The notes under the pieces were generated by a model, which ran no database searches, was not told where the DNA came from, and saw nothing but the letters and a program-made list of their open reading frames with translations. The position numbers were made by a program, and so were the translations under genes. Positions 10,867 to 26,479 of a stretch of 39,452 nt of DNA are shown piece after piece (the first letter of the stretch is position 1; the number at the start of each line of letters is the position of its first letter). Source of the stretch: Deltaproteobacteria bacterium (GTDB taxonomy: Bacteria; Desulfobacterota; Dissulfuribacteria; Dissulfuribacterales; QOAL01); NCBI GenBank assembly GCA_027067775.1, contig JAMOVK010000072.1, forward strand, positions 1-39,452, read 5' to 3'.

Positions 10867-12057
10867 CTAGTCTGCCTTTTTTCTCATGAATGTGGGAATA
10901 TCCAGATCTTCTCCATCAAGTGACTCAAAACCTGTGAACTCTCCCTTCTGTGTCGATCCCCTAGATGCAAAACCCAGTGTACCCTTTTTCACCTTATGTA
11001 TAGGCAACTCTTCTTCGGGAGGGGGTTCATCTGAAACGCGTTTTTGACGAGCCTCATCCAGACTTGCTATAACAGGATCTTCCATGGGTAGAGGCTTTTC
11101 TCTGCCAATACCAGTGGCGATTACAGTAACCCTAATTTCATCCCCCATATTTTCATCAAAAACTGTTCCCCAAATAATGTTGGCATCATCATGAGCCTCG
11201 TTTTCAATGAGGCTTGCTGCCTGATCCATCTCTTCCATACTCAAAGTAGCTGCGCTTGCAGTGATGTTCATGAGTATGCCCCGGGCCCCGCTTATTGAAA
11301 CATCCTCAAGAAGCGGATTGGCTATAGCCATCTGCACTGCCTCAAGGGCACGCCGCTCACCTTTGGCTACGCCTGTACCCATAAGGGCCATGCCCATCTC
11401 TGCCATCACGGTGCGAACATCTGCAAAATCCACATTTATATAGCCCTGAACCACAATAAGATCTGAAATACCTCTTACAGCATAGTAGAGCACCTCATCC
11501 GCCTTTTTAAACATCTCGAGAAAAGGCGTATTAGGTTGGGCCAGGCTTCTTAGCCTGTCGTTGGGAATGGTTATTATGGTATCAACCACCTCTTTTAGAC
11601 GCTTTATTCCTTCGTCTGCCTGACGGGCACGCCTCTTGCCCTCAAAACTGAAAGGCCGTGTCACCACTGCAACAGTAAGAGCCCCGACTTCCTTGCTGAT
11701 TTCTGCAATGACAGGAGCACCGCCTGTTCCTGTACCTCCTCCCATACCGGCTGTAACAAAGACCATATCAGCACCTTCAAGGGCATCCCTTATTTCCTCT
11801 GCACTCTCTTCAGCAGCCTCTCTACCTATCTCCGGTTTTGCACCTGCACCAAGACCCTTTGTAAGAGTTCTACCAAGCTGGATCTTTTTATCTGCTCTAG
11901 ACATCTCCAGGGCCTGGGCGTCGGTGTTAGCGGCTATAAACTCAACCCCCTGAAGCTCAGAGGCGATCATATTGTTTATGGCATTTCCTCCGCCTCCTCC
12001 AACACCAATAACCTTTATTTTTGCCTGAAGCTCTTGTTCCACAAATTCTAAGGGCAT
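10867..12057 (-). CDS. ftsZ: Cell division protein FtsZ
   Basis: This 396-residue tubulin homologue forms the Z ring. The GTP-binding tubulin signature [11 protein letters not shown] is at about residue 105, following [14 protein letters not shown] near the N-terminus; the T7 loop region ([12 protein letters not shown]) supplies the catalytic aspartates. The C-terminal peptide [13 protein letters not shown] is the conserved tail that binds FtsA and other anchors, after a linker of roughly 60 residues. A strong AGGAGGAGGG ribosome-binding site precedes the ATG. It is the last gene of the dcw operon, 24 bases after ftsA. Confidence 0.98.
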
Positions 12058-12081: not shown

Positions 12082-13311
12082 TTAAAGACCAAACCAAGAC
12101 TTCATCCTCCCTGTTACCTTGCTGAGGATATTGTCCCCACGCATCTTAAATCTCTTTGGATTTTGCGGCCTGTCCTGAAAACCGTAAAGGACAAGTCCTA
12201 CCGCCGTTGAATACAGGGGACTGTTGACCACATCAACCAGCCCCGAAATGTTTCTTGGATATCCCACCCTTGCGGGAAGCTGGAATATCTGATCCGCCAT
12301 CTCACAGACCCCTGGCAGCAAGGCAGAGCCTCCTGTTATCACTATTCCAGAGGCCAAAAATTCCTTAAGCTTGGTCCTCTGAATCTCCTGATCTATAAGA
12401 GAAAAAATCTCTTCTACCCTGGGCTCAAGAATCTCTGCCAATATGTGCCTGGACAGCTGTCTTGGCCGCCTGTCTCCAACGCTTGGGACCTCTATCATCT
12501 CATCCCTTCTCACCATGGAGACCAGACAAGTCCCGTAACGGATCTTTATCTTCTCTGCATCATTCATGGGGGTTCTGAGCCCAACAGAAATATCATATGT
12601 CAGGTTATTGCCTCCCAGCCCCAAGACTGCGGTGTGCTTGATGGAACCTTCACTTAGCAAGGCAAGATCCGTTGTGCCTCCACCAAAATCTATTAGGGCA
12701 ACTCCTATCTCCCGCTCTTCATCTGTAATTACTGCATAAGCTGAAGCAAGCGGCTGAAGCACTATATCATCCACATCAAGACCTGCACGGTTGGCACACT
12801 TCACAAGATTTTGCGCTGCTGTCACCGCACCTGTCACTATATGGACCTTTGCCTCGAGTCTCACGCCCATCATACCCACCGGATCAAGTATACCGTCCTG
12901 ATCATCCACAATATACTCCTGGGGTAAAATGTGGATTATCTCCCGATCCAATGGTATGGCAACGGCACGGGCTGCGTCTATAACACGTTCAACATCTTCT
13001 TCGCTAACTTCCTCGCCTTTGACAGCAATAACACCGTGACTGTTAAACCCTTTTATATGGCTCCCGGCAATTCCAACAAAGGCTGACGTAATCTCGCAGC
13101 CTGCCATGAGTTCGGCCTCTTCGACTGCCTTTCTGATAGAGTTGACAGTACTGTCGATATTGACCACCACTCCCTTCCTGAGCCCAACTGATGGATGAGT
13201 CCCCACACCAATGATCTCAATCTTGTCATCGTTCAACTCGCCCACAACACAACAAATCTTGGTGGTTCCTATATCAAGGCCAACTACTATATCGTAACCG
13301 CTTTCGACCAT
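12082..13311 (-). CDS. ftsA: Cell division protein FtsA
   Basis: This 409-residue actin-like protein tethers FtsZ to the membrane. ATP-binding blocks are visible: VVGLDIGTTKICCVVG near the N-terminus, LIDFGGGTTDLAL in the middle and IVITGGSALLPGV near residue 325. The 1C domain (about 85-165) follows the first phosphate loop. The last 15 residues (LSKVTGRMKSWFGL) look like the amphipathic membrane-targeting helix. It is preceded closely by ftsQ (6 bases) and followed by ftsZ, the standard order at the end of dcw clusters. Confidence 0.97.
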   Translation of the reverse strand: MVESGYDIVVGLDIGTTKICCVVGELNDDKIEIIGVGTHPSVGLRKGVVVNIDSTVNSIRKAVEEAELMAGCEITSAFVGIAGSHIKGFNSHGVIAVKGEEVSEEDVERVIDAARAVAIPLDREIIHILPQEYIVDDQDGILDPVGMMGVRLEAKVHIVTGAVTAAQNLVKCANRAGLDVDDIVLQPLASAYAVITDEEREIGVALIDFGGGTTDLALLSEGSIKHTAVLGLGGNNLTYDISVGLRTPMNDAEKIKIRYGTCLVSMVRRDEMIEVPSVGDRRPRQLSRHILAEILEPRVEEIFSLIDQEIQRTKLKEFLASGIVITGGSALLPGVCEMADQIFQLPARVGYPRNISGLVDVVNSPLYSTAVGLVLYGFQDRPQNPKRFKMRGDNILSKVTGRMKSWFGL

Positions 13312-13317
13312 ATGCCT

Positions 13318-14157
13318 TTATCTTTTTTTGAGCTTGGCAAGAGCCATATCTTCGCCATAACCGACTTTCACACTGAGAACCTTAGGATACTGACCTGAAT
13401 TATACAGTTGAACCAGTATCTTTTCAGCCTGATAAAACTGTTTCTTATACTTGTCCCTATCAAGAATAAAAGGTACTGCCTTGTCCGCAGTATAAATCAC
13501 CACATTATTGTTATTTGGAAAATCTATCTGGCTGATATTGTTGAAACCCAAGGCCCTTACACCCCTTTTGGACATCCTCACTATAGTTATAGCCACACGC
13601 ATCTTGTCTTCATCTACCGGCGCAGGCCCATTTGAAACATCACTGCCTGGCTTTAACTCTATGCCTGTTATAATCGGTGCAGAAAAATTTTCCTTTGGAT
13701 CCAGAGGCTTAAACGCTTCCCCGTAACGGTCAACGATATAGATACGATCACTTATTCTAGCCAACGCATAGGGTTCCCGTTCTTCTATATAAATAACAAT
13801 CTTGTCTGGAAGACGTCTCTCTATAGAGACATCCCTGACCCACGGATTATCTAGTATCTTGTCTCTTATGGCCGCAAAGTCCAAACTAAAAATGTTGTCT
13901 CCATTCTTAATAGAGCTTAACTTGACAATGTCTTGCTTTGGAATACGATTGACTCCCTGCACCTCCACCTGGGAAACAAAGAAATACGGACAACAGCTCA
14001 TCCATTTTTTGATTCCATAAACCGTACCAGCAATTCCTCCCATCAAGAGACAGGCCAGGCCCATAAACAGAAAGACTCGAGACCAGATGCCTCTGCCATT
14101 TCTTTCTGTAGCACGCCTTCTTACTGAACGCCTATTTTTGCCAAAACTCTTCTTCAT
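13318..14157 (-). CDS. ftsQ: Cell division protein FtsQ/DivIB
   Basis: This bitopic division protein has a basic cytoplasmic N-terminus (FGKNRRSVRRRATERN), one membrane segment (VFLFMGLACLLMGGIAGTVYG) and a periplasmic POTRA domain starting at VSQVEVQGVNRIPKQDIV, then the beta domain with WVRDVSIERRLPDKIVIYIEEREPYA. FtsQ links FtsL and FtsB to the divisome. The ATG at 14157 is chosen, giving 279 residues; a TTG at 14172 adds five residues but has its SD-like GGAAGAGG too close. The gene overlaps the murB end. Retention of FtsQ and FtsL is notable because their usual client FtsI is degenerate here and ftsW is missing. Confidence 0.92.
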   Translation of the reverse strand: MKKSFGKNRRSVRRRATERNGRGIWSRVFLFMGLACLLMGGIAGTVYGIKKWMSCCPYFFVSQVEVQGVNRIPKQDIVKLSSIKNGDNIFSLDFAAIRDKILDNPWVRDVSIERRLPDKIVIYIEEREPYALARISDRIYIVDRYGEAFKPLDPKENFSAPIITGIELKPGSDVSNGPAPVDEDKMRVAITIVRMSKRGVRALGFNNISQIDFPNNNNVVIYTADKAVPFILDRDKYKKQFYQAEKILVQLYNSGQYPKVLSVKVGYGEDMALAKLKKR

Positions 14158-15106
14158 GGCGCCACACCACAACCTCTTCCTTCAAAACGACCCCTGTATT
14201 TTCCCAGACCCTTTTCTTTATAAGCCCGATCAGCGAAAGCACATCATGACTGCTTGCCTGGCCCAGATTGACAATGAAATTTGCATGCTTTGGAGAGACC
14301 TGAGCATCTCTCATCCTGAACCCCTGAAGTCCGCATGATGCTATAAGAGACCAGGCTGAACATTCCGGCAAAGGATTCTTAAAGATACATCCTGCACTGG
14401 CTTGACCAAGGGGTTGAGTAGAAAGTCTTTTTTTCATAGCCTGCCTGATGTTATCACGTACTAAAGAGCCATGAGATGGAACAAGTGCATCTGCGGCCAC
14501 AATGCCTTTTTGAACACATTGAGCCTCACCCTCTTTCCTGATACGAAATCTAACAGCCGATACGAGGCCGCCTGGAGGAATACTGCCAGCTCTGTAATGA
14601 AAGGTATTTTCATCTGCCTTTAACCAATAGCTACCGTCAGCCGTGGTAATGCATAATTCCTTAACAAAATTGCCTATAGAGACATCATTTGCCCCTGCGT
14701 TCATAGATATGGCACCACCAAGGGAACCTGGAATACCAACAAGAGATTCCAGACCAGTATAGCCATTTTTTATGCACCACTTTAGAAACCCTGGCAAACT
14801 ACAACCTGCCTCAACATACACGCTGTCACATTTTGATCTGTAAATCCCTTTTAAAAGCGAAAGGCTAAGCACCACACCCACACCCTCATCCTCTACGATG
14901 AGGTTGCTACCATTTCCAAGCACCTTGAAACTGATTTGGTGCCTATGGAGAAATCGGAGCACTCTTTCTAGGGCTCCAATAGTACTAGGAGTGATAAAAC
15001 ACCTGGCCTTCCCTCCCACTTTCATGGTGGTAAGAGGCGCAAGGGGCACGTTTTCCCTGCATGTAATTCCCTTAATCTGAGAGATATCCTTAAAAAATTG
15101 CTGCAA
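14132..15106 (-). CDS. murB: UDP-N-acetylenolpyruvoylglucosamine reductase MurB
   Basis: This FAD enzyme reduces the enolpyruvyl group to make UDP-MurNAc. The FAD-binding segment is clear (VLGNGSNLIVEDEGVGVVL; GLESLVGIPGSLGGAISMNAGAN). The catalytic proton donor in the loop usually read as GSVFKNP is a cysteine here (ASAGCIFKNP), a substitution that also occurs in other bacterial MurBs. The C-terminal Glu-containing end is present. A GTG at 15115 opens the frame, but AGAGGT at 15114-15119 abuts it and instead sits 7 bases before the TTG at 15106, which is therefore preferred (324 residues). It overlaps the murC end by 17 bases. Confidence 0.93.
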   Translation of the reverse strand: MQQFFKDISQIKGITCRENVPLAPLTTMKVGGKARCFITPSTIGALERVLRFLHRHQISFKVLGNGSNLIVEDEGVGVVLSLSLLKGIYRSKCDSVYVEAGCSLPGFLKWCIKNGYTGLESLVGIPGSLGGAISMNAGANDVSIGNFVKELCITTADGSYWLKADENTFHYRAGSIPPGGLVSAVRFRIRKEGEAQCVQKGIVAADALVPSHGSLVRDNIRQAMKKRLSTQPLGQASAGCIFKNPLPECSAWSLIASCGLQGFRMRDAQVSPKHANFIVNLGQASSHDVLSLIGLIKKRVWENTGVVLKEEVVVWRHEEEFWQK

Positions 15107-16484
15107 CTCTGTCACCTCTAAGGGATTGCACTATCTTGGGACCTATCTTTCCGATTGCCCCTGCCCCCATAGTAAAAACTACATCTCCATCCCTTAGAAA
15201 GGGCGGTACCACACTTGGAAAATCGTTAACATTCTTCACAAAATGTACATCCCTGTTACTTTTTTTCTCAATAAGTCCTGCAAGACGCTGGCCACTTACC
15301 CCAACGATTGGCTTTTCGCTTGCCGGATAGATTTCTGTAAGCCAAAGGTCATCAGCATTGTCAAAACATGAAACAAATTCTTCCATAAGAGCCTGGGTCC
15401 TGCTGTAGCGATGGGGCTCAAAGAGCACTACAATACGTCTATCCGGCCACAGTTGCCTAGCCGCCTCCAAGGTTGCCTTTATCTCGGTAGGATGATGGGC
15501 ATAGTCATCAACAACCGTGACACCTCTTTCAGTGCCAAGAATCTCAAACCTTCGTCCAACACCACTGTATGCCTCCAGACCCCTTCGAATGATTTCAAAT
15601 TCTTGCTGAAGTTCAATGCCAAGGGCCACCGCTGCCAAGGCATTTCTTACATGGTAGATTCCTGGCACAGAAAGATTGATCTGTCCAAGAAAGGTTCCAT
15701 AATGCTCAACCCCAAATGATACCCCCTTGGAGGTTGTTCTGATGCAGCAGGCCTTTAGCTCTACGTCTTCTCCGGTTCCATAAATGATATGCCTCTTGCG
15801 GTTATTTGAAAGCACCTGTTTTACAACAGGGTCATCACCACAGGCTATCACCACACCATAAAAGGGAATCCTGTCAATGAATCTTGAAAAACTTTCCTTT
15901 ATCTCTTCGAGCCCCGAATAGAAATCAAGATGCTCCCTATCTATGTTGGTGACCACCACGATACTTGGCGTGAGCCTCAGAAAACTGCCGTCACTTTCGT
16001 CTGCTTCGGCAACCAGGAAATCCCCTTGACCCCAATAAGCATTTGTCCCAAGGCCCTTGACCTGACCACCTATTATAACCGTTGGATCAAAACTGGCCGC
16101 CTGGAGAACAGATGTTATCATAGACGTTGTGCTTGTCTTCCCATGGGTCCCGGCAACGGCTACACCAAATTTTTTAAAACGCATCAGCTCTCCCAACATC
16201 TCGGCCCTGGGTATGATTGGAATATCTGCAGCACGTGCAGCCGTGAGTTCTGGATTGTCCGATCTTACGGCCGAAGACACCACCAATACATCTGCACCAG
16301 TTACATTCTCTGGACGATGTCCCTTGTAAATGGTTGCTCCGTTTGCCTCCAGTCTTTTGGTAATCATGGTACTTCTGATATCAGAACCTGAAACAGAATA
16401 ACCCAGGGTCAAAAGGACCTGGGCCAGACCGCTCATCCCGATTCCGCCTATACCAACAAAATGAATATGCTGTTTCTTATACAT
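15090..16484 (-). CDS. murC: UDP-N-acetylmuramate-L-alanine ligase MurC
   Basis: This 464-residue cytoplasmic Mur ligase adds L-Ala to UDP-MurNAc using ATP. The N-terminal UDP-binding Rossmann motif is HFVGIGGIGMSGLAQVL; the ATP P-loop GTHGKTSTTSM is at about residue 113; the central Mur ligase block HLDFYSGLEEI and the C-terminal VVDDYAHHPTEI with FEPHRYSRT are all conserved. The start ATG overlaps the murG stop by 8 bases. It lies in the order murD-murG-murC-murB. Confidence 0.97.
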   Translation of the reverse strand: MYKKQHIHFVGIGGIGMSGLAQVLLTLGYSVSGSDIRSTMITKRLEANGATIYKGHRPENVTGADVLVVSSAVRSDNPELTAARAADIPIIPRAEMLGELMRFKKFGVAVAGTHGKTSTTSMITSVLQAASFDPTVIIGGQVKGLGTNAYWGQGDFLVAEADESDGSFLRLTPSIVVVTNIDREHLDFYSGLEEIKESFSRFIDRIPFYGVVIACGDDPVVKQVLSNNRKRHIIYGTGEDVELKACCIRTTSKGVSFGVEHYGTFLGQINLSVPGIYHVRNALAAVALGIELQQEFEIIRRGLEAYSGVGRRFEILGTERGVTVVDDYAHHPTEIKATLEAARQLWPDRRIVVLFEPHRYSRTQALMEEFVSCFDNADDLWLTEIYPASEKPIVGVSGQRLAGLIEKKSNRDVHFVKNVNDFPSVVPPFLRDGDVVFTMGAGAIGKIGPKIVQSLRGDRVAAIF

Positions 16485-17631
16485 GGCTCTTGAGCTGTTC
16501 TCCCTCCATTTCTGTCACATCAGAAAAAATCTCGCTATCGCAATTACATAGTTTTAACATAGACAGTGCAATTTCTTTGGCTGCATCAGGTTTTCCAAGC
16601 CCTTTTGAGCGTTTTCCCATTTCAACCAGACGGACAGGATCGCTCATCAGCGTTTCTATATTTGACGCCAAGGCTACTGCCCCTAAATCTCTTTCGTTAA
16701 AACAAAGGGCAGCACCTGCCTCACACAGGGTTTTAGCATTCAGGTCCTGATGACCATCAGCTGCATAAGGAAACGGTATGCATATAGCCGGCTTGCCAAC
16801 TGCTGTAATCTCTGCCAAGGTACTAGCACCTGCCCTGCAAATTATCAGATCAGCCCATGAGTACGCAATCCCTATTCTTTCAATAAATGACTCTACTTTC
16901 ACATTCATACCGCTCGATTTATAACTATCTGAAATAACATCTCTTTCTCGAGGACCTGTCTGATGGATGGCCTGAAACCTTAAACCTGACTGATGCATGA
17001 TTTTCAGGGCAGAACTCACAATCCTGTTAAGGCCTGTGGCTCCCTGACTGCCTCCAAGCACAAGTATCCTGAAATGCCTATAGGGATCAACATTGGTAGA
17101 CAGATCCATGGCATCTTCCAGTATCTGTCTCCTAATGGGATTACCAAGGCATTCCACCTTTTTACCCTTGAAATAACGAGAGGATCCCTGGAAGCTTGTG
17201 TAAATCCTATCTGCAAAACGGGCAGCCAGCTTGTTTGCAAGGCCTGGCAGATAATTTTGTTCATGTATTGCAGTTGGAATCCGAAGGATTTTTCCTGCCA
17301 GAAGCACTGGCCCTGAAACATACCCTCCTACACCGAGAACTATATCCGCCCTGAATCGCCTGATTGCGCTTACAGCCCTTGCCACCGATACAGGAAGGCT
17401 AAGTACTGCTGTAAACAGCCCTCCCAGGTTTCTGCCCTTGAGAGGACTGACATGAAGGATCTGATACTGCCAGGGCCTTTTGGAAAGTACCTTTTCTTCA
17501 ACTGGCCGACCAGTGCCTATCCACTTTACATGCAAAGGGCACATCGATGACAGCTCTTCAGCGATCGCAATACCCGGAAAGAGATGTCCTCCTGTTCCTC
17601 CACCTGCTATTAAAAGCCGTATTTCTTTCAT
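16477..17631 (-). CDS. murG: UDP-GlcNAc:lipid I N-acetylglucosaminyltransferase MurG
   Basis: This 384-residue peripheral membrane glycosyltransferase converts lipid I to lipid II. The donor/acceptor glycine loops are visible (LLIAGGGTGGHLFPGIAIAEEL near the N-terminus; LVLGGSQGATGLN in the middle), as are the HEQNYLPGLANK block and the UDP-GlcNAc site ICRAGASTLAEITAVGKPAICIPFPYAADGHQ. The last 25 or so residues extend a little beyond the usual end. The start overlaps murD by 4 bases. In most dcw clusters ftsW lies between murD and murG; here it is missing. Confidence 0.97.
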   Translation of the reverse strand: MKEIRLLIAGGGTGGHLFPGIAIAEELSSMCPLHVKWIGTGRPVEEKVLSKRPWQYQILHVSPLKGRNLGGLFTAVLSLPVSVARAVSAIRRFRADIVLGVGGYVSGPVLLAGKILRIPTAIHEQNYLPGLANKLAARFADRIYTSFQGSSRYFKGKKVECLGNPIRRQILEDAMDLSTNVDPYRHFRILVLGGSQGATGLNRIVSSALKIMHQSGLRFQAIHQTGPRERDVISDSYKSSGMNVKVESFIERIGIAYSWADLIICRAGASTLAEITAVGKPAICIPFPYAADGHQDLNAKTLCEAGAALCFNERDLGAVALASNIETLMSDPVRLVEMGKRSKGLGKPDAAKEIALSMLKLCNCDSEIFSDVTEMEGEQLKSHV

Positions 17632-19025
17632 CGCTCCTGGCCATATATCTTTTTCACAGCCTTTTTAAAGGCCATGCCCCGTTCCCTGTAGCTGGAAAAC
17701 ATGTCAAAACTTGCACATGCTGGAGAAAGCACGATTAAATCTCCTAGCTTGGCCATGGTTCTGGCCTTTCTTACCGCTTCTTCCATCACCGTTTCCCCGC
17801 AGGTACCCTGTATTACGCATATATTTTGAAAAAATCCATCAAGGCCGGAAGCCATTTCATGGGCAGACTCTCCCACAAGGACAACACCCTTTATCTGTGG
17901 ACCACATCCATTGCCCAGGGATGAAAGAACCTGGCCAAGTCGGGAAAAATCCTCTCCCTTTGCCCTGCCACCTGCAATCAACACCACCGGTCTTGACAAG
18001 CCACCAAGACCTGAAACAACAGCATGGAGGTTGGTGGCCTTAGAATCATCAAAATATGTTACGCCTTCAAAGACCCCTATCTCTTCCATTCTGTGAGAAG
18101 GAGATTCAAAATCAGAAAGGGCCTTTTCAATCAGCCCTGTGCCAACCCCTAAGACCTTGGCACTGACAGCAGCTGATGCCAAATTCTCCATGTTGTGCCT
18201 TCCCCTAAGAGTCCAATTAGACACATCAAACCTAAGATCTTTACCTAGTAAAGATATAGTAAGAGTAGAGCTTGACTCATCTATCAGCATATCCCTGAGA
18301 AAGACTCGATCGGCTACCGTCTTGAATTCTTCTGCACCTGGTCCCAGGACAGCCACTGAATCTTTTTCCTGAAAAGAAAAAAGATGCTCCTTTGCCCTTT
18401 TGTATTCTTCAACGCTGCCATGTCTGTCAATGTGGTCCGGAGCAACGTTAAGGCATACAGCAGCCTTAAATGCTGGCCTTTTGAGATCCAGGACAGAAAA
18501 ATCTGGAAAATATTCCAGTTGAAAACTGCTTATTTCCAGCACCCCACAGGTCCTGCCGTCATTTAAATGAAAAAGATCAAAAAGCGGAGGAGATATGTTC
18601 CCAGCCCTAACAACAGGAAGACCGCCTTTTTCCAAAATATGGCCGGTAAGAAGTGTAGTGGTGGTCTTGCCATTGGTGCCGGTAATTCCCACAAGCGGCC
18701 CCTTCCAGAGGCTCGAGGCGAGATACAATTCACCCACAACAGGGATGTCTTTCCTTACTGCATTGGTGACAACCATGTGATAAGGAGGCACGCCAGGACT
18801 CACCACAAGAAGTTCAAGGCTGCTGGGCACCTTCTGGCTGGAACAGGAGCCGATGGTTTCGATATCGTTTTGCCTGCACCATGATAGAAAATCTTTTTTC
18901 CATTCCTGTTCAGGCTTGTCGTCTATACATACAACATCCGCTCCTTGACTCCAGAGCCAGCGGGCTGCTGACATTCCAGCCTCGCCCAATCCAAGGATGC
19001 CTATGTAACGTTTTGCAAGATTCAA
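17628..19025 (-). CDS. murD: UDP-N-acetylmuramoyl-L-alanine-D-glutamate ligase MurD
   Basis: This 465-residue Mur ligase adds D-Glu. The ATP loop reads [19 protein letters not shown] at about residue 115; the later blocks VAPDHIDRHGSVEEY, SPSHRMEEI, YFDDSKATNLHAV and LSPACASFDMFSSYRERG are typical MurD features. It begins at TTG (19023-19025 complement), with the ribosome-binding sequence GAGGTAGG overlapping the mraY stop, so translation is likely coupled to mraY. It overlaps murG by 4 bases. Confidence 0.96.
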   Translation of the reverse strand: MNLAKRYIGILGLGEAGMSAARWLWSQGADVVCIDDKPEQEWKKDFLSWCRQNDIETIGSCSSQKVPSSLELLVVSPGVPPYHMVVTNAVRKDIPVVGELYLASSLWKGPLVGITGTNGKTTTTLLTGHILEKGGLPVVRAGNISPPLFDLFHLNDGRTCGVLEISSFQLEYFPDFSVLDLKRPAFKAAVCLNVAPDHIDRHGSVEEYKRAKEHLFSFQEKDSVAVLGPGAEEFKTVADRVFLRDMLIDESSSTLTISLLGKDLRFDVSNWTLRGRHNMENLASAAVSAKVLGVGTGLIEKALSDFESPSHRMEEIGVFEGVTYFDDSKATNLHAVVSGLGGLSRPVVLIAGGRAKGEDFSRLGQVLSSLGNGCGPQIKGVVLVGESAHEMASGLDGFFQNICVIQGTCGETVMEEAVRKARTMAKLGDLIVLSPACASFDMFSSYRERGMAFKKAVKKIYGQER

Positions 19026-19029
19026 AAAC

Positions 19030-20109
19030 CTACCTCAATTTAAGCGTGCTTATGGCCACAAGGCCAAGAAGCACCGAAATTATCCAAAACCTGACGATTA
19101 CCTTTGGCTCTGGCCAGCCCAGCATCTCAAAGTGATGATGCAGAGGAGCCATTTTAAAAATTCGCCTGCCCTTTGTCGCCTTAAAATATCCCACCTGCAT
19201 TAAAACTGAAACAGCCTCTGCAACAAATACCCCGCCTACAATAGCAAGCAGTATCTCCTGTTTTGACAATACAGCCACTATGCCAAGAATTCCTCCCATT
19301 GCAAGCGAACCAACGTCTCCCATGAAAATCTCTGCAGGATAACTGTTGTACCACAGAAAACCCAGCCCGGCCCCTACCATGGCTCCACAAAAGACAGAAA
19401 GCTCGCCTACACCTGGCACATAGGGTATCTGCAGATACTGGGCAAGCCCTGAATGTCCTGCCAGATAGCAAAAAAGCGTATAAACTGCAGATGAGATAAC
19501 AAATGGGCCGGTGGCAAGACCATCAAGTCCATCTGTCAGGTTGACCGCATTGGAAGAGCCTGCCACAACCAAAAAGGCAAAAAAGATGTAAAATAGTCCA
19601 AGATCAGGACGCAGGTTCTTAAAAAAAGGCACACTCAGCCTGGTGTCCCAATGGCCGCTCTTTATAAGAATTACAGCACACACACAGACCAAAACGGCCT
19701 GGATGGCAAGCTTCCACCTTCCTGCAAGCCCGGCACTGCTCTTTTTGCGTATCTTAAGCCAGTCGTCATAAAAGCCTATGGCTGCAAAGCCAACCAGTAT
19801 TATCATGCACACCCAGATATAAAGGTTGGTAAGATCGGCCCAAAGAAAAGTTGACGAAATAATGGCAAAGTTTATGAGCAGCCCTCCCATGCTTGGAGTA
19901 CCGGTCTTTTTCAGATGGCTTTTGGGGCCATCATCCCTTACAACCTGACCAAACTGCAATTCCTTGATCTTATTAATAAACCATGGGCCAAGAAACAGGG
20001 TTATGGCAAGGGCAGTCACGGCAGCGTATATGGTGCGAAAGGTTATGTACCTAAAGACATTCAGGACCTGAAAATGAACATGCAAGGGGTATAGCAAATG
20101 ATAAAGCAT
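19030..20109 (-). CDS. mraY: Phospho-N-acetylmuramoyl-pentapeptide transferase MraY
   Basis: This 359-residue integral membrane enzyme makes lipid I from UDP-MurNAc-pentapeptide and undecaprenyl phosphate. It has about ten hydrophobic segments and the family motifs [43 protein letters not shown] and the histidine motif [24 protein letters not shown]. Length matches E. coli MraY (360). Its ATG overlaps the TGA of the murE-murF gene by one base (TGATG). Confidence 0.98.
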
Positions 20110-23051
20110 CAGGCTTCCTCCACCAACCTGTTTCTTATGGCAAAGGCCACCTTCTCAAGCCCAACTCCTCTTGAACCCTTTAAAAGCACAACCCTTTTTG
20201 TTCCGTTAAAAAAACATCCTTTGTCTTCCATAAGATAGGAGAGTGCATCCATGGCATTTTCAAATGTAACTATTTTTTTTGAAGAAAGGCCTGATTCCAT
20301 GGCTCCAGAGGCTATTTTATTTGCCATGGCACCAACTGCCAAAAGTACCTTTGGGTCAAGTTGTGCTGCCTTTCTGCCAAGCTCCAAGTGATATCTTTCT
20401 GCATCCTTGCCAAGTTCCAGCATGTCTCCAAGGACCAGGTTTTTACCATATGAACCCGGCAATCTGTCAACGAAGTCTAAGGCAGCTTCCATAGAGGCAG
20501 GATTTGCATTGTAGGTATCATCAACAATTATCCAGCCCGACACCTCCTCCATATTCAGACGCCCCTTTGGAGGACTGCAATGCAAGATACCCTGGGCAAC
20601 ATCTTCGGTAGATATCCCAAAGGCCATTCCAGAGGCAACGGCAGCAGCGATGTTCAGGATGTTCACCTTGCCGTGAAGTCTGGATTCTACTTCTACCTCT
20701 GTCCCCTCCACATCCAGGGTCAAAAACAATCCTTGAGGTCTGTCAATCCAGTGCTTCACCAAAACAACATGGCCAACCTTGACATGTCTAGCCCTTTTCA
20801 TGTCAGTGCCAAAACCCCAGATATTTGCCGCCTTGGTCCTTTTGAGATTTTCAACCACCAGTTCGTCATCAAGGTTGCAGACAGCCGTGCCCTTCTCGGG
20901 CAAACATTCAAAAACAAAACCCTTTTCAAATGCAATGTTTTCTATAGTTCCTAGACCTTCCAGATGAACCGGCCTGATACAGGTGATAAGCCCCACCTCG
21001 GGACTGGCTATCTGGCACAGTCGCTCAATCTCACCTGGAAGGTTTGTTCCCATCTCCAGCACAGCCCACTCGGTTCCTGGCGTCATTGAAAAAATGGTAA
21101 GGGGAAGGCCTATGAGATTATTGTAGTTCCCCATTGTGGCACCGGTGCGGAATGCTGTTGACAGTACAGAATGGACCAGCTCCTTGGTTGTTGTCTTTCC
21201 ACAACTTCCAGTTATGGCCAGGGTCTTCATACCTAGAAATCTTCGATACCATGAGGCAAACTCTCCCAAGGCGTAGAGGGTGTTGTTTACCATAACAACC
21301 GGAGCATCTGTCCCTTTAAAACAGCCCTTTTCACAGACGGCACCTGCTGCCCCCCTTTCCAGTGCCTGGGCAACAAAGCTGTTTCCATCAAAGCGCTCTC
21401 CCCTAACAGCCCAAAAAAGCGCATTCTGACCTATGGTCCTGCTGTCTGTAGATATTGAGCTGAAAGAGACAAACTGGAAATCCTCATGGCAGCTGCCACC
21501 AGTAGCCCTGCAAACATTTCTCAATACCGGACAGCCTTTACCGGGGCTGTCTTTTGGGAAACCAGCCCCCAAGGCCAAATCAAGACCTTTTTTAAGCACC
21601 TCCCTATCGTCAAAAGGGAACTTTTGTTTTCCAATCATCTGATAATCTTCGTGACCCTTACCTGCCACAAGCAATATATCCCCAGGCCTTGCCTGGGAAC
21701 ACGCCCAGTATATAGCTTCTTTCCGATCTTCAATAACCCGCACCTTGGACAAGAGATTACCTCTTATGCCTGCAAGCATCTCATCTATTATCGTAGAGGG
21801 ATCTTCAGTACGAGGATTGTCAGAGGTAAACACGACAAGATCTGAAAGACGAGCAGAAGTAGCAGCCATCTCCGGCCTTTTTCCCCTGTCCCTATCTCCG
21901 CCGCAACCTATGACGGTTATGATACGCCCATGCTTTCTCACCTCGGAAAGGGCCTTAAGAACACTGCTCACAGCATCTGGAGTGTGGGCATAGTCAACAA
22001 GGGCCGTCACCTTGGCATCCACCACCCGTTCTAATCTGCCGGGTATGTTTCTTATGGACTCCACACCTCTTTTTACAGCCCATGAGGGAACACCAAGCGC
22101 CAAGGCCACGGCAGCAGAGGCGAGAATGTTTTGCAGGTTGTGCCTTCCAAGAAGAGGGGAATCTATCTCTATGAGCTCTTCACCGTAGTGGATTTTGGCC
22201 TTGATACCCCCTTGACCCAGATGGATATCCTCGGGAAAGACATCTGCCTGATGCGGGATCTCTCCATAAGAGATCTTGCTGCCAGAAACAGACTGCCACA
22301 GCCTTTTTCCATAGGAATCGTCAACATTTATTACGCATCTTTGAGCCTTGTCTTCCCAAAAAAGTTGTGCCTTGGCATTGAAGTAGCTTTCAATCCCTTT
22401 GTGATAATCTAGGTGATCCCTAGTCAGGTTGGTAAACAAGGCCGCTGAAAACCTGCATCCCTCAACCCTACCCTGATCAAGTGCGTGGGACGAGACCTCT
22501 GCAACAAGATACTCCACCCCTCTGTCTAACGCCTTTTTTAAAAAGGCATGAAAGGCAACGCAGTCAGGGGTGGTCAGCTCGGCCTCCATCTCTTCCCGGC
22601 CTATTCTCTGACAAATGGTTCCGGAAACTGCTGTATTTTTTCCCCATGCAGCAAGTATTGCCTCTATAAGATATGAACATGTGGTCTTGCCGTTTGTGCC
22701 GGTAATACCAATAACCTCAAGACCATGACTTGGCATATTGAAAAACGCATGGGCCAGTCTGCCTGCCGAATATCTGATATCAGGAGTAGACAGAAGAACT
22801 ATGTCTTGGGGCAGATGTGACTTTACGGATTCAAGCCGCTCTTGAGGTATGAGTATGGCTGAAGCGCCTCTTTCTAAGGCATCCCCTATGAAACGACATC
22901 CGTGGACCTTCGTTCCTGGAAGGGCCATAAACAGGCCACCAGGAACTATCTTTCTTGAATCCACAGCCAGGGAAGTAACTTCTTCTGATCCGCTTCCTTG
23001 TACCAGGATAATGGGAACTTTCGCTGTCTGAAGCAACCTTGACAGTTTCAT
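20109..23051 (-). CDS. murE-murF: MurE-MurF fusion: meso-DAP-adding ligase fused to D-Ala-D-Ala-adding ligase
   Basis: One uninterrupted frame encodes two complete Mur ligases, 980 residues from the chosen ATG. The MurE half (about 1-498) has the ATP loop [10 protein letters not shown] at 115-124, the UDP-substrate block [15 protein letters not shown] and the DNPR motif at 411-414, which in MurE recognises meso-diaminopimelate. After a short linker the MurF half (about 515-980) has STDSRTI, the ATP loop ITGSCGKTT at 613-621, and [12 protein letters not shown]. Both halves are full length, so this is a true fusion performing consecutive steps (tripeptide, then pentapeptide). A TTG at 23147 opens the frame 32 residues earlier, overlapping the ftsI-like gene, but the ATG matches the MurE N-terminus (KLSRLL). 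Similar fusions are known in Bordetella. Confidence 0.95.
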
Positions 23052-23121
23052 TCGGTTTTGATGAGTCTCACTATATAATTTTATTTTTTCAAAAGATGCG
23101 GCCGAAAAAAACCTGATCCAA

Positions 23122-24771
23122 TTATGCAGGACCTTTTTCACACACAATTACACACTCTTGACTGCTAACTATCCTGCGACCAGGCTTGGGGTACTGATCC
23201 TTTACCTTGCCAGTGCCAGAGATACGGATCTTCATTCCGAGACGACCAGCCACCTCCAGAGCACTCCTAATAGACATTCCCCTCAAATCGGGCATGATCC
23301 ATGGACGGATCTCGTTCTTTTGGACCACCCTTGAGCTATTACCAGGAACCTGGCGATCCTTGGCAAACCTATAACGGGCCCCAAGGGCCATGGCCCCCTT
23401 TTTTGCAAGTACTGCCATCCTGCCCAATGTTCCTCTGCGTTGAGAGGGGGTATATTTAGCATCAAACAACACACTAATATAACTGATTTTCGGTTTGTCT
23501 GCAGGCCAAAATCCAAGCCCCACCACCTGAAATTTCCCAGAATCCGAAGGCCAATAGGCAGCTACAGAAGGGCCGCTCTCATCTCCGAATACCGATAACA
23601 TGAATCTGTGTGTTTGTTTACCAAACAATCTGGATGATGCCGGCTCATCCGAACCTTTTTGGCCCAAATCATTCATTGCAATGTGAGGCCGCACAGGTCC
23701 GCTGTTCTTAAGCAAGGCCGTATAGGCCGAAAGGAGCTGAATAGGGGTTGAATTTGCCGTTGATGAAATGACGCGGGTAACGTTGCCTGAAAGCATTGTT
23801 GGCAACCCGCCTTGTCTTTCTTCAGGAAGATCAATTCCCGTTTGTTGCCCAAAACCCAAATTGATGAGACGGGTAAGCATGTCTTGATGAAATTCTAGAC
23901 CATCCAATTCTTCTTCCTGCAGACAAGTCCATATGGCTGCATCTTCTGAGAAATTGTGCCAGTGCCACCTTCCTACCTTTACTATGGGGTTGTCATCTTT
24001 TTGCAAAAGCCATAGAAGATCCCTGTTTACCTGCCTGACATCGTCTTTCACTTGAGCCTGATCTGACAACCTAGTCTTCAACCTTAAATCCATAATCTCC
24101 TCAAGGGCTATGGTCACCATTACAGGCCAAGGATTTACCAGACCACTGATAGCCAAGTTGATATTTTGGTCTGAATGAATTGATCCGTCCCTGTTATTCA
24201 CACTTGTCATGGCAAGTATTTGGCCAGTCTCTACGTCCATAAGCACCAGGGAACCTGCATTAGCGTGCAGCCTTTTCATCTGCCATATCAAGTTTTCCCT
24301 GCTTTGGGTCTGAAGATTTTTGTCAATGGAAAGGACAAGGGGATCCTGCCAATCCCCCTGTCCGCCATTGGAAGAGAGGAGAAAATTGTCATAGATGTAC
24401 TCTATGCCTTCAAGCCCGCGCCCGTAACGGTCTATATAACCAATAACATCATCCAAAAGTCCCTTGTAGGGTCTGATGCGAACAGCACCTCTTTGAGGAT
24501 CTTCTTTTGAGATGCACAAGATGGTACCCGTCCTGTCAACAATTGGACGCCTTTTAAGGATACGCCTGGTAAGCGGTGATGCAGCGGAAAAAGAAGCGCC
24601 AGGGGCAAGAGTTGGGCTGTCTAGATGCTGCTGTTCAGACACCCTCTCCCCGAAACAGCCTGAAAGACACAGACTGATTAGAAAAAGGACCACCACTAGG
24701 TTGAAAGTCTGGTCCTTTTTCCTAAACTCCCCATCTCTAGCAATAATCCCGCCCCTGACAAACTGTTTCAC
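23122..24771 (-). CDS. FtsI/PBP2x-like lipoprotein lacking all transpeptidase catalytic motifs
   Basis: This 549-residue protein is in the ftsI position and keeps class B PBP landmarks: RPIVDRTG (76-82), GRGLEGIE (117-124), PLVLSIDKNLQ, LVLMDVETGQILAM (175-188), LGFGQQTGIDLPEE (305-318), STPIQLLSAYTAL and a C-terminal PASTA-like segment (about 493-545). The catalytic motifs are absent: EPGSTFK is replaced by NPWPVMV (213-219), the SxN site by SED (275-277), and the KTG region by GDESGPSV (396-403). The pedestal between DRTG and GLEGIE is much shorter than in FtsI. The N-terminus is a lipoprotein signal: basic region, VVVLFLISLCLSGC, with lipobox LSGC and Cys39. The GTG start has GGAG 8 bases upstream. 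The frame is intact and lies between ftsL and murE, so a maintained pseudoenzyme is more likely than decay. Confidence 0.85.
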   Translation of the reverse strand: MKQFVRGGIIARDGEFRKKDQTFNLVVVLFLISLCLSGCFGERVSEQQHLDSPTLAPGASFSAASPLTRRILKRRPIVDRTGTILCISKEDPQRGAVRIRPYKGLLDDVIGYIDRYGRGLEGIEYIYDNFLLSSNGGQGDWQDPLVLSIDKNLQTQSRENLIWQMKRLHANAGSLVLMDVETGQILAMTSVNNRDGSIHSDQNINLAISGLVNPWPVMVTIALEEIMDLRLKTRLSDQAQVKDDVRQVNRDLLWLLQKDDNPIVKVGRWHWHNFSEDAAIWTCLQEEELDGLEFHQDMLTRLINLGFGQQTGIDLPEERQGGLPTMLSGNVTRVISSTANSTPIQLLSAYTALLKNSGPVRPHIAMNDLGQKGSDEPASSRLFGKQTHRFMLSVFGDESGPSVAAYWPSDSGKFQVVGLGFWPADKPKISYISVLFDAKYTPSQRRGTLGRMAVLAKKGAMALGARYRFAKDRQVPGNSSRVVQKNEIRPWIMPDLRGMSIRSALEVAGRLGMKIRISGTGKVKDQYPKPGRRIVSSQECVIVCEKGPA

Positions 24772-24775
24772 TATT

Positions 24776-25126
24776 TTACTCCGGCAACGTAATTATTTGA
24801 TTTTCTCCTGGCGGTCTAAGCCCCAGTCTCCTGCCTATCTTTGCCAAAGTGGCCTTGGAAGTTATGTTATCAAGCTGTCTGTTAAGCTGTTTATTTTCAT
24901 ATTGGAGGGCAGAATACCTCTGTTCAAGTGCACTTATATCATTTGCAACACTTTTAACCTTATAGGAGGTATAAACAGAAAGAGCTAAGAATAGGATCAG
25001 CAAAAGAAAGGACAAAATGCCCCTAAAAGACGAATGAAAGAGTCGGGAACCTGAAGAAGTTCCAACACGCCTTGGCGTATAACCTCTTTTCTGCGGCATT
25101 CTTATGGTAGCTGATTTGATGGTCAT
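24776..25126 (-). CDS. ftsL: Cell division protein FtsL
   Basis: This 116-residue small bitopic protein has a basic cytoplasmic part of about 33 residues, one membrane segment (ILSFLLLILFLALSVYTSY) and a periplasmic heptad-type coiled coil (VANDISALEQRYSALQYENKQLNRQLDNI), ending in GRRLGLRPP, the typical FtsL C-terminal motif. FtsL pairs with FtsB and FtsQ to activate FtsWI. It overlaps rsmH by 4 bases and precedes the ftsI-like gene by 4 bases. Primary sequence is poorly conserved in this family; the call relies on topology and position. Confidence 0.85.
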   Translation of the reverse strand: MTIKSATIRMPQKRGYTPRRVGTSSGSRLFHSSFRGILSFLLLILFLALSVYTSYKVKSVANDISALEQRYSALQYENKQLNRQLDNITSKATLAKIGRRLGLRPPGENQIITLPE

Positions 25127-26064
25127 TTCCCTACCTCCGTGACCTGCATAACTCTTTGTGCCACCCTGAGTTTGGCACTTCTTGACCTGGGGTTGGAGGT
25201 TATCTCATCCCTAGAAGGCCTGACGGGTCTCTTGGTAACCACCTCAAGTTCTTTACAACCCCTAAAAAAATGTTTGACTATACGATCTTCCAAGGAATGG
25301 AAGCTTATTACGCATATACGGCCACCAGGACTTAACACCCTGTAAGATGCCTCTAAGGCACAAGTCAAATTTTCGAACTCCCTATTTATTGCAATTCTAA
25401 TGGCCTGGAAGGTCCTGGTTGCAGGGTGGATCTTTCTGGGATGAAATCTCTTGGGGATAGCCTCCTTAACTATAGTGGCCAGTTCCAGGGTGGAAAAGAT
25501 TGGCCTGTCTTGCCTTTTGGCAACTATTGCAGCAGCTATCTTTTTGGCCCATGGTTCTTCTCCGTAAAGCTGAATAAGTTGGACAAGCCTGTCTTCCGGG
25601 AGTTTATTTATCATATCCGATGCGAGAATCGTGGTACTCCTATCCATTCTCATGTCAAGGGGCTCGTCACGCATAAAACTGAATCCCCGTCCGCTTTCAT
25701 CCAGCTGAAAAGAAGACAATCCCAGATCCATAATAATTCCATCTACTTGAGTTACACCCTCTTCTGACAAAACTACTTCCAGATTGCTAAAGTTGGACTG
25801 GTAAAAGGATATCTTGGATTCAAATGGCTCCAGTCTCATCTTTGCAAGCTCAAGGGCCTCTTCATCCCAGTCAAGGGCAATGACACGTTCTATATCAGGG
25901 TATGCTTGGAGCAGGGCCTTGGTATGCCCCCCAAGCCCCAAGGTTGCATCCAAGTAGACTCCACCTTTTTTGGGAACAAGATTGCCAAGGACCTCTTTGA
26001 CAAGGACCGGAGTATGAATGCTATCAAGCCTATAATCCGATGCCGTATTCCTTGATGATATCAT
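25123..26064 (-). CDS. rsmH: 16S rRNA m4C1402 methyltransferase RsmH (MraW)
   Basis: This SAM-dependent methyltransferase modifies C1402 in the decoding centre of 16S rRNA. Family blocks are HTPVLVKEVL near the start, the SAM loop YLDATLGLGGHTKALL, DGIIMDLGLSSFQLD, GFSFMRDEPLDMRMD, HPATRTFQAIRIAINREF and ICVISFHSLEDRIVKHFF. Several ATG codons lie at the start inside the mraZ end; the one at 26064 gives 313 residues, the size of the E. coli enzyme, with a modest GAG upstream, while 26079 is also possible. It is the second gene of the dcw operon. Confidence 0.96.
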   Translation of the reverse strand: MISSRNTASDYRLDSIHTPVLVKEVLGNLVPKKGGVYLDATLGLGGHTKALLQAYPDIERVIALDWDEEALELAKMRLEPFESKISFYQSNFSNLEVVLSEEGVTQVDGIIMDLGLSSFQLDESGRGFSFMRDEPLDMRMDRSTTILASDMINKLPEDRLVQLIQLYGEEPWAKKIAAAIVAKRQDRPIFSTLELATIVKEAIPKRFHPRKIHPATRTFQAIRIAINREFENLTCALEASYRVLSPGGRICVISFHSLEDRIVKHFFRGCKELEVVTKRPVRPSRDEITSNPRSRSAKLRVAQRVMQVTEVGK

Positions 26065-26479
26065 CGCTAATCTCATCAAAATTGTCCCTCGTCTCTATCA
26101 GCTGGTTCTCCAAGAGTTCTCTACTCCAGATCTCGAAATAGGTAAGCATGCCAACAACGACAACTTCCTTCTTTATTTCAGCACCTTCCCTGAGATGGGC
26201 TGGCAGAAGGATGCGACCTTGACCATCCAGATTACACTCAACGGCAGCTCCAAGAAGATATCGCTTAAAAGCCAGGACCTTCGGAGGGCCAAACCTAAAC
26301 CGTGTGAATTGTTCCTCTACCCGATTCCATTCCTCAACAGGGTAGGCGGCAAGACAGTTGGGCAGATTGGTGACGATAAGCCTGCTATCGTACTTGGTTT
26401 TGAGTACATCCCTAAATCGTGCCGGAATGCTCAGTCGACCCTTAGAATCAAGATTATGGGTCGATCTGCCACGGAACAT
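26030..26479 (-). CDS. mraZ: Transcriptional regulator MraZ
   Basis: This 149-residue protein contains two SpoVT-AbrB-like half-domains. The first has the motif NLDSKGRLSIPARFRD (about 10-25), the second CNLDGQGRILLPAHLRE (about 80-96), with DxxGR in each. MraZ forms a ring and binds direct repeats upstream of its own gene to repress the dcw operon. Here four such repeats lie immediately upstream. Length is close to E. coli MraZ (152). Its end overlaps rsmH. Confidence 0.97.
   Translation of the reverse strand: MFRGRSTHNLDSKGRLSIPARFRDVLKTKYDSRLIVTNLPNCLAAYPVEEWNRVEEQFTRFRFGPPKVLAFKRYLLGAAVECNLDGQGRILLPAHLREGAEIKKEVVVVGMLTYFEIWSRELLENQLIETRDNFDEISDDIIKEYGIGL

Follow-up and report, generated by a model that had tools for sequence, protein, structure and literature searches.

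Genes and features of the locus

The window, that is, the whole analyzed stretch of 39,452 nucleotides, contains a dcw cluster on the minus strand. The ftsI slot of this cluster is occupied by an open reading frame (ORF) that starts with GTG according to the ORF listing and is herein referred to as pseudo-FtsI. The limits given for it by an earlier, sequence-only reading were exact, and its strand is minus. The following features were assigned:

10867..12057, minus strand: ftsZ (ORF and position; conserved in relatives)
12082..13311, minus strand: ftsA (ORF and position; conserved in relatives)
13318..14172, minus strand: ftsQ (ORF and position; between murB and ftsA in relatives too)
16477..17631, minus strand: murG (ORF; contact with murD also in relatives from the class)
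17628..19025, minus strand: murD (ORF; overlaps murG by 4 nt, murD-murG span 16477..19025)
20109..23147, minus strand: fused murE-murF, directly downstream of pseudo-FtsI (two Mur ligase Pfam sets)
23122..24771, minus strand: pseudo-FtsI (549 aa) in the ftsI slot, a degenerate class B PBP that has the FtsI fold (ORF, Pfam, model, profile)
23170..23295, minus strand: C-terminal PASTA domain, residues 493-534 (Pfam PF03793, 1.3e-8)
23563..23580, minus strand: ESGPSV, residues 398-403, immediately upstream of the deleted KTG strand (alignments)
24115..24135, minus strand: position of the lost SxxK, now NPWPVMV, residues 213-219, with Ser replaced by Pro216 and Lys by Val219 (alignments)
24655..24666, minus strand: lipobox LSGC, residues 36-39, predicted lipoprotein signal (sequence, alignment, lipobox scan)
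24776..25126, minus strand: ftsL (DivIC/FtsL family), 4 nt upstream of pseudo-FtsI (PF04977, 3.6e-10)
25123..26479, minus strand: rsmH and mraZ, which open the dcw cluster (ORFs, synteny)

The 3′ end of the pseudo-FtsI ORF overlaps the annotated start of murE-murF. In the class Dissulfuribacteria (Thermodesulfobacteriota), the order mraZ-rsmH-ftsL-(pseudo-FtsI)-murE-murF-mraY-murD-murG-murC-murB-ftsQ-ftsA-ftsZ is constant in the clusters examined as far as the contigs reach, and wherever the slot is readable, pseudo-FtsI has ftsL on one side and murE on the other. The murE-murF fusion forms one ORF of 1012 aa; a fused or adjoining pair was also found in relatives from the class and in genome G080. 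A candidate for FtsB was found outside the window, on contig C34 (DivIC match, 7.7e-10).

Active site, fold, and maintenance of pseudo-FtsI

The best profile match of pseudo-FtsI is FtsI of Pseudomonas aeruginosa (E 1.9e-41). The HMM alignment between the two breaks off immediately ahead of the catalytic serine and picks up at a conserved block, LGxGQxTGxxxPGE, and the best stretch of the Pfam Transpeptidase domain (PF00905) covers only profile positions 125-189 of 299. The N-terminal pedestal is much shortened in the source genus, as seen in the alignment. An AlphaFold2 model built on an input alignment of 27 orthologues (pLDDT 80.2, pTM 0.71) has PBP3 of Escherichia coli (7ono) as its top Foldseek match (E 7e-21). 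Realignment with VIA gave Z 29.9 to PBP3 of E. coli and Klebsiella (338 residues aligned for PBP3); for the FtsI subunit of the FtsWIQBL complex, Z was 29.2. The class B PBP scaffold inferred in the sequence-only reading is kept as an FtsI/PBP3 fold, and alignment, which it proposed as a check, confirms loss of the Ser-Lys-Ser site.

The residues PWPVM (214-218), SED (275-277), and ESGPSV (398-403), named earlier as substitutes for SxxK, SxN, and KTG, are all present in the sequence. In alignments with PBP2 of the same genome and with relatives, Pro216 and Val219 fall in the columns of the catalytic Ser and Lys, which bears out the replacement of SxxK. The other two motifs were not replaced residue by residue: in the same alignments SxN falls in a remodelled segment and the strand that would carry KTG is deleted, so SED and ESGPSV are only neighbouring sequence. 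An intact set elsewhere in the protein would have refuted the loss; a scan of the whole ORF found no substitute set (the sole S..K is SIDK148, and the sole [KHR][TS]G is RTG80), which rules out relocation of the active site within the ORF. The PASTA-like tail is indeed intact, its match reaching 35.1 bits against a Pfam cut-off of 23.2. To judge from its sequence, pseudo-FtsI lacks the septal transpeptidase active site (SxxK, SxN, KTG); there are no data on beta-lactam binding.

The proposed replacement of the membrane anchor by a lipoprotein signal holds for the source genus, with its clear LSGC, and fails for most other families. The lipobox pattern was found in 8 of 9 genus members, the ninth having Met at -3, and C39 is unchanged in 11 aligned family members. 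In most other families the pattern is missing, and some of them carry an ordinary signal anchor (lipobox scan). The predicted lipoprotein form is a local variant.

Of 41 genomes from the genus, family, and order, 38 encode a relative of pseudo-FtsI; 30 relatives were extracted and the 27 near-full-length ones compared. All three motifs are missing in each of these 27 orthologues from the class, and 19 positions are invariant over this divergent set. Close pairs have dN/dS of 0.15-0.40 (Nei-Gojobori), so the gene is maintained. Both the shared losses and these values answer checks suggested beforehand. The frames are open throughout the class; orthologues that are scattered, frameshifted pseudogenes, which would also have refuted the sequence-only reading, did not appear. 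A pseudogene or a sequencing error is ruled out by these open frames together with the dN/dS values. As a separate observation, the Planctomycetes contigs L055 and L056 show 24-26% identity to the middle region of pseudo-FtsI.

Loss of FtsW within and beyond the class

Because of the 4-nt overlap between murD and murG, nothing is located at the usual ftsW site in the window. In relatives where both genes are present, the gap between them is at most about 180 nt, with no ftsW between. The FTSW_RODA_SPOVE family has exactly one member in 21/21 relatives, and a single SEDS protein was found in all 35 class genomes of at least 90% completeness, one of these matches being a contig-end fragment. An assembly artefact is ruled out by the murD-murG overlap and by the agreement of all 35 genomes, including a one-contig genome. 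G052, also in one contig, is an apparent exception: its two SEDS matches, L177 and L178 (C1:137697-138757), adjoin and look like one rodA split by a frameshift or sequencing error.

The sole SEDS gene of the window's genome is the rodA of an mreB-mreC-mreD-mrdA-rodA operon, whose PBP2 has all motifs. No FtsW is detectable in this genome with Pfam, although a strongly diverged one elsewhere could escape, as those of families f29 and f52 do (see below). PF00905 was found only in PBP2, PBP1a, a small transpeptidase, and pseudo-FtsI, which rules out a second intact FtsI elsewhere in the genome. The small transpeptidase is a secreted protein of 412 aa (L003:1189-2427, contig C84 of G000) with SASIFK, SHSIN, and KTGT; many class genomes have it, others do not, and it is a possible additional cross-linking enzyme. 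In G016, G030, G036, G034, and G027, intact PF00905 matches at threshold are limited to PBP2 and PBP1a, and G034 also shows the dead protein. The class has lost FtsW, short of a strongly diverged copy that is not excluded, and retains only an inactive copy of FtsI.

The SEDS count was extended to 198 genomes sampled over the phylum. Most of them carry two SEDS proteins, and several families carry one. The one-SEDS families f20, f23, f61, f73, f63, f32, f29, and f52 have a dcw cluster without FtsW and an FtsI eroded to different degrees: 620-703 aa with the site destroyed in f23, f20, f61, and f73; 451-455 aa in f63; 324-332 aa without PASTA in f32; and 248-318 aa, with little beyond anchor and PASTA, in f29 and f52. 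At the aligned positions, SxxK, SxN, and KTG are each present in 19/19 FtsI proteins of FtsW-bearing relatives. In the alignable orthologues from FtsW-less clusters, SxxK and KTG were found in 0/34 each and SxN in 1/34, the latter in a stretch without neighbouring similarity; this contrast is not due to chance. The one-SEDS families f24 and f80 nevertheless keep FtsW in the dcw cluster and an intact FtsI; therefore, erosion of FtsI correlates with FtsW and not with the number of SEDS proteins. To the extent that gene content reveals it, absence of FtsW with an eroded FtsI also characterizes lineages similar to Desulfurivibrio and to Thermodesulfobacteria; G191 and f32 are the ones that we take to resemble Thermodesulfobacteria.

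Genome G126 (f20, 99% complete) has no RodA/FtsW match and lacks both a class B PBP and a full-length MreB; the whole mre-PBP2-rodA operon is missing, through loss or an assembly gap. Frames of ~970-1150 aa with weak partial matches to the transpeptidase domain, perhaps more degenerate PBPs, were found in G183, G147, G200, G105, and G126 (f20/f61/f73).

Seven dcw proteins were concatenated (2711 columns), and the resulting FastTree phylogeny united Dissulfuribacteria, f20/f61/f73, and f32/f63 with support 0.997; f23 joins next (0.84), and all of these form a single clade without FtsW. The "W-" score of G207 in this tree arises only because its sequence stretch ends before the ftsW site. Families f29 and f52 form a clade of their own (support 1.0), whose nearest sampled relatives have FtsW. 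We infer that FtsW was lost twice; this remains an inference because the data set is modest and several deep supports are low.

At the ftsW site of f29 and f52, a membrane protein of ~262 aa without a Pfam match was found (L147-L152, e.g. L149:9079-9864). Its model (pLDDT 84.8, pTM 0.85) has the ten-helix SEDS fold, with Z 19.9 to RodA and 19.3 to FtsW, the next non-SEDS match being at 12.8. The large catalytic loop (P-x-x-H-T-D-F, with the catalytic Asp) is deleted in all six proteins. Judged by this predicted fold, they look like a pseudo-FtsW family; in f29 and f52, the entire FtsW-FtsI pair persists as pseudoenzymes.

Proposed division without a catalytic FtsW-FtsI pair

The sequence-only reading of a maintained pseudoenzyme is upheld by the fold, the class-wide loss of motifs, the fixed synteny, and purifying selection; what it overlooked was the loss of FtsW, the spread over several classes, the two inferred origins, and the local nature of the lipoprotein form. 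With a dead FtsI and without FtsW, a major builder of the wall that separates daughter cells, this deep group of sulfur bacteria must close its cells by means of another wall-building enzyme. The explanation that we consider rather probable is that pseudo-FtsI represents the genuine FtsI orthologue in this lineage, kept as a non-catalytic part of the divisome after its partner FtsW was lost. FtsL, FtsQ, FtsA, and FtsZ in the window and the FtsB candidate elsewhere were counted in its favor. Pseudo-FtsI would bridge the FtsQLB-FtsA-FtsZ machinery to septal peptidoglycan through its PASTA tail and may recruit or activate the synthase that replaced FtsWI. This bridge is inferred, with no data on interaction, localisation, or essentiality. 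The replacement would most likely be RodA-PBP2, the most economical candidate because it is the only SEDS-bPBP pair left, perhaps together with the single class A PBP. With FtsW gone, contact with its membrane helices would be unneeded, which would fit, speculatively, the exchange of the anchor for a predicted lipoprotein signal in the genus. The structural role in division that was first proposed is plausible, but there are no data on contact surfaces for FtsL or FtsQ. Since f32, f29, and f52 lost nearly the whole transpeptidase-like domain, a full FtsI scaffold is not required everywhere; perhaps only anchor and PASTA matter in the shrunken forms, but f32 is also without PASTA.

The main rival to RodA-PBP2 as septal synthase is PBP1a. 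The septum could be made mainly by PBP1a, alone or with the 412-aa transpeptidase, as in Clostridioides difficile, with dead FtsI organising the ring and RodA-PBP2 confined to elongation. We regard this as possible but unlikely. The class genomes do have a class A PBP, and the small transpeptidase on C84 looks active, but the latter is missing in several class genomes; the FtsW-less relative G126 shows neither RodA nor a class B PBP, but it lacks the whole mre operon too, so that an assembly gap is possible. It is more doubtful still that pseudo-FtsI left division and became a PASTA peptidoglycan-binding envelope lipoprotein or sensor whose place in the dcw cluster persists by inertia. The predicted lipoprotein switch in the source genus, the strongly shortened pedestal, and the shrinkage of f29/f52 proteins to PASTA plus anchor would suit such a protein; the unbroken ftsL-murE position in all readable class clusters, the complete FtsI fold retained in the class, and the association, twice, with loss of FtsW speak against it. 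That the gene is simply decaying toward loss, as stepwise shrinkage across lineages might suggest, is very improbable: every near-full-length orthologue examined has an open frame, and the dN/dS range, the 19 invariant positions reported above for divergent orthologues, and the ancient origin seen in the dcw tree also speak against it.

Returning to a retained, non-catalytic FtsI, we think it somewhat likely that a large and ancient portion of Thermodesulfobacteriota, made up of Dissulfuribacteria and their relatives in Desulfobulbia and Thermodesulfobacteria, and separately f29 and f52, carry out FtsZ division without a catalytic FtsW-FtsI pair, the pseudoenzyme steering either RodA-PBP2 or a class A PBP toward the septum. 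In this multi-class group without FtsW and with dead FtsI, the structural task of FtsI would be naturally separated from catalysis, and the ability of RodA-PBP2 or of class A PBPs to build a septum can be put to the test. The group includes the cultured Dissulfurimicrobium hydrothermale, of which strain Sh68 is a short rod of the class Dissulfuribacteria (PMC8780430), and Desulfurivibrio alkaliphilus, of which strain AHT2 is rod-shaped (PMC5016858). Entries of "FtsI" as a transpeptidase in these bacteria, in pipelines, published tables, and possibly work on cable bacteria, need checking.

Pseudo-FtsI shares with FtsI/PBP3 of E. coli and P. aeruginosa the fold, the gene slot, and the arrangement of anchor, pedestal, and transpeptidase-like domain. 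It differs in lacking SxxK, SxN, KTG, and an FtsW partner, and in having a short pedestal, a PASTA tail, and, in this genus, a lipoprotein anchor. PBP2b and SpoVD of Bacillus subtilis are PASTA-tailed septal class B PBPs, and the catalytic activity of PBP2b, a known division scaffold, can be bypassed; both keep the active site, whereas pseudo-FtsI does not.

Absence of FtsW is already known for Desulfobulbaceae, including cable bacteria, and for Thermodesulfobacteria. It is missing in four Desulfobulbaceae genomes, where FtsI is treated as present and working (PMC7873302), and ftsW is missing from the dcw cluster of Thermodesulfobacteria (PMC8871954). In the present data, members of both groups have the same eroded FtsI, and the parts of the cable-bacteria paper that we consulted do not mention loss of its active site (PMC7873302). 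Inactivation of FtsI appears to be unreported: open-licence literature yielded no description of an inactive FtsI from these bacteria, and nothing on pseudo-FtsI, inactive SEDS proteins, or the peptidoglycan of Dissulfuribacterales, but the restriction to such literature makes this weak evidence.

The view that FtsW-FtsI is universally conserved for septal wall synthesis has been stated and then challenged with C. difficile, which has no canonical FtsWI pair and makes its division septum with a class A PBP (PMC10693644). The two systems share FtsZ-based division, absence of canonical FtsWI, and retention of FtsQLB-type proteins. They differ in that the dcw pair of C. difficile is the active sporulation pair SpoVD/SpoVE (PMC10693644), whereas here FtsW was lost and FtsI was kept as a pseudoenzyme.
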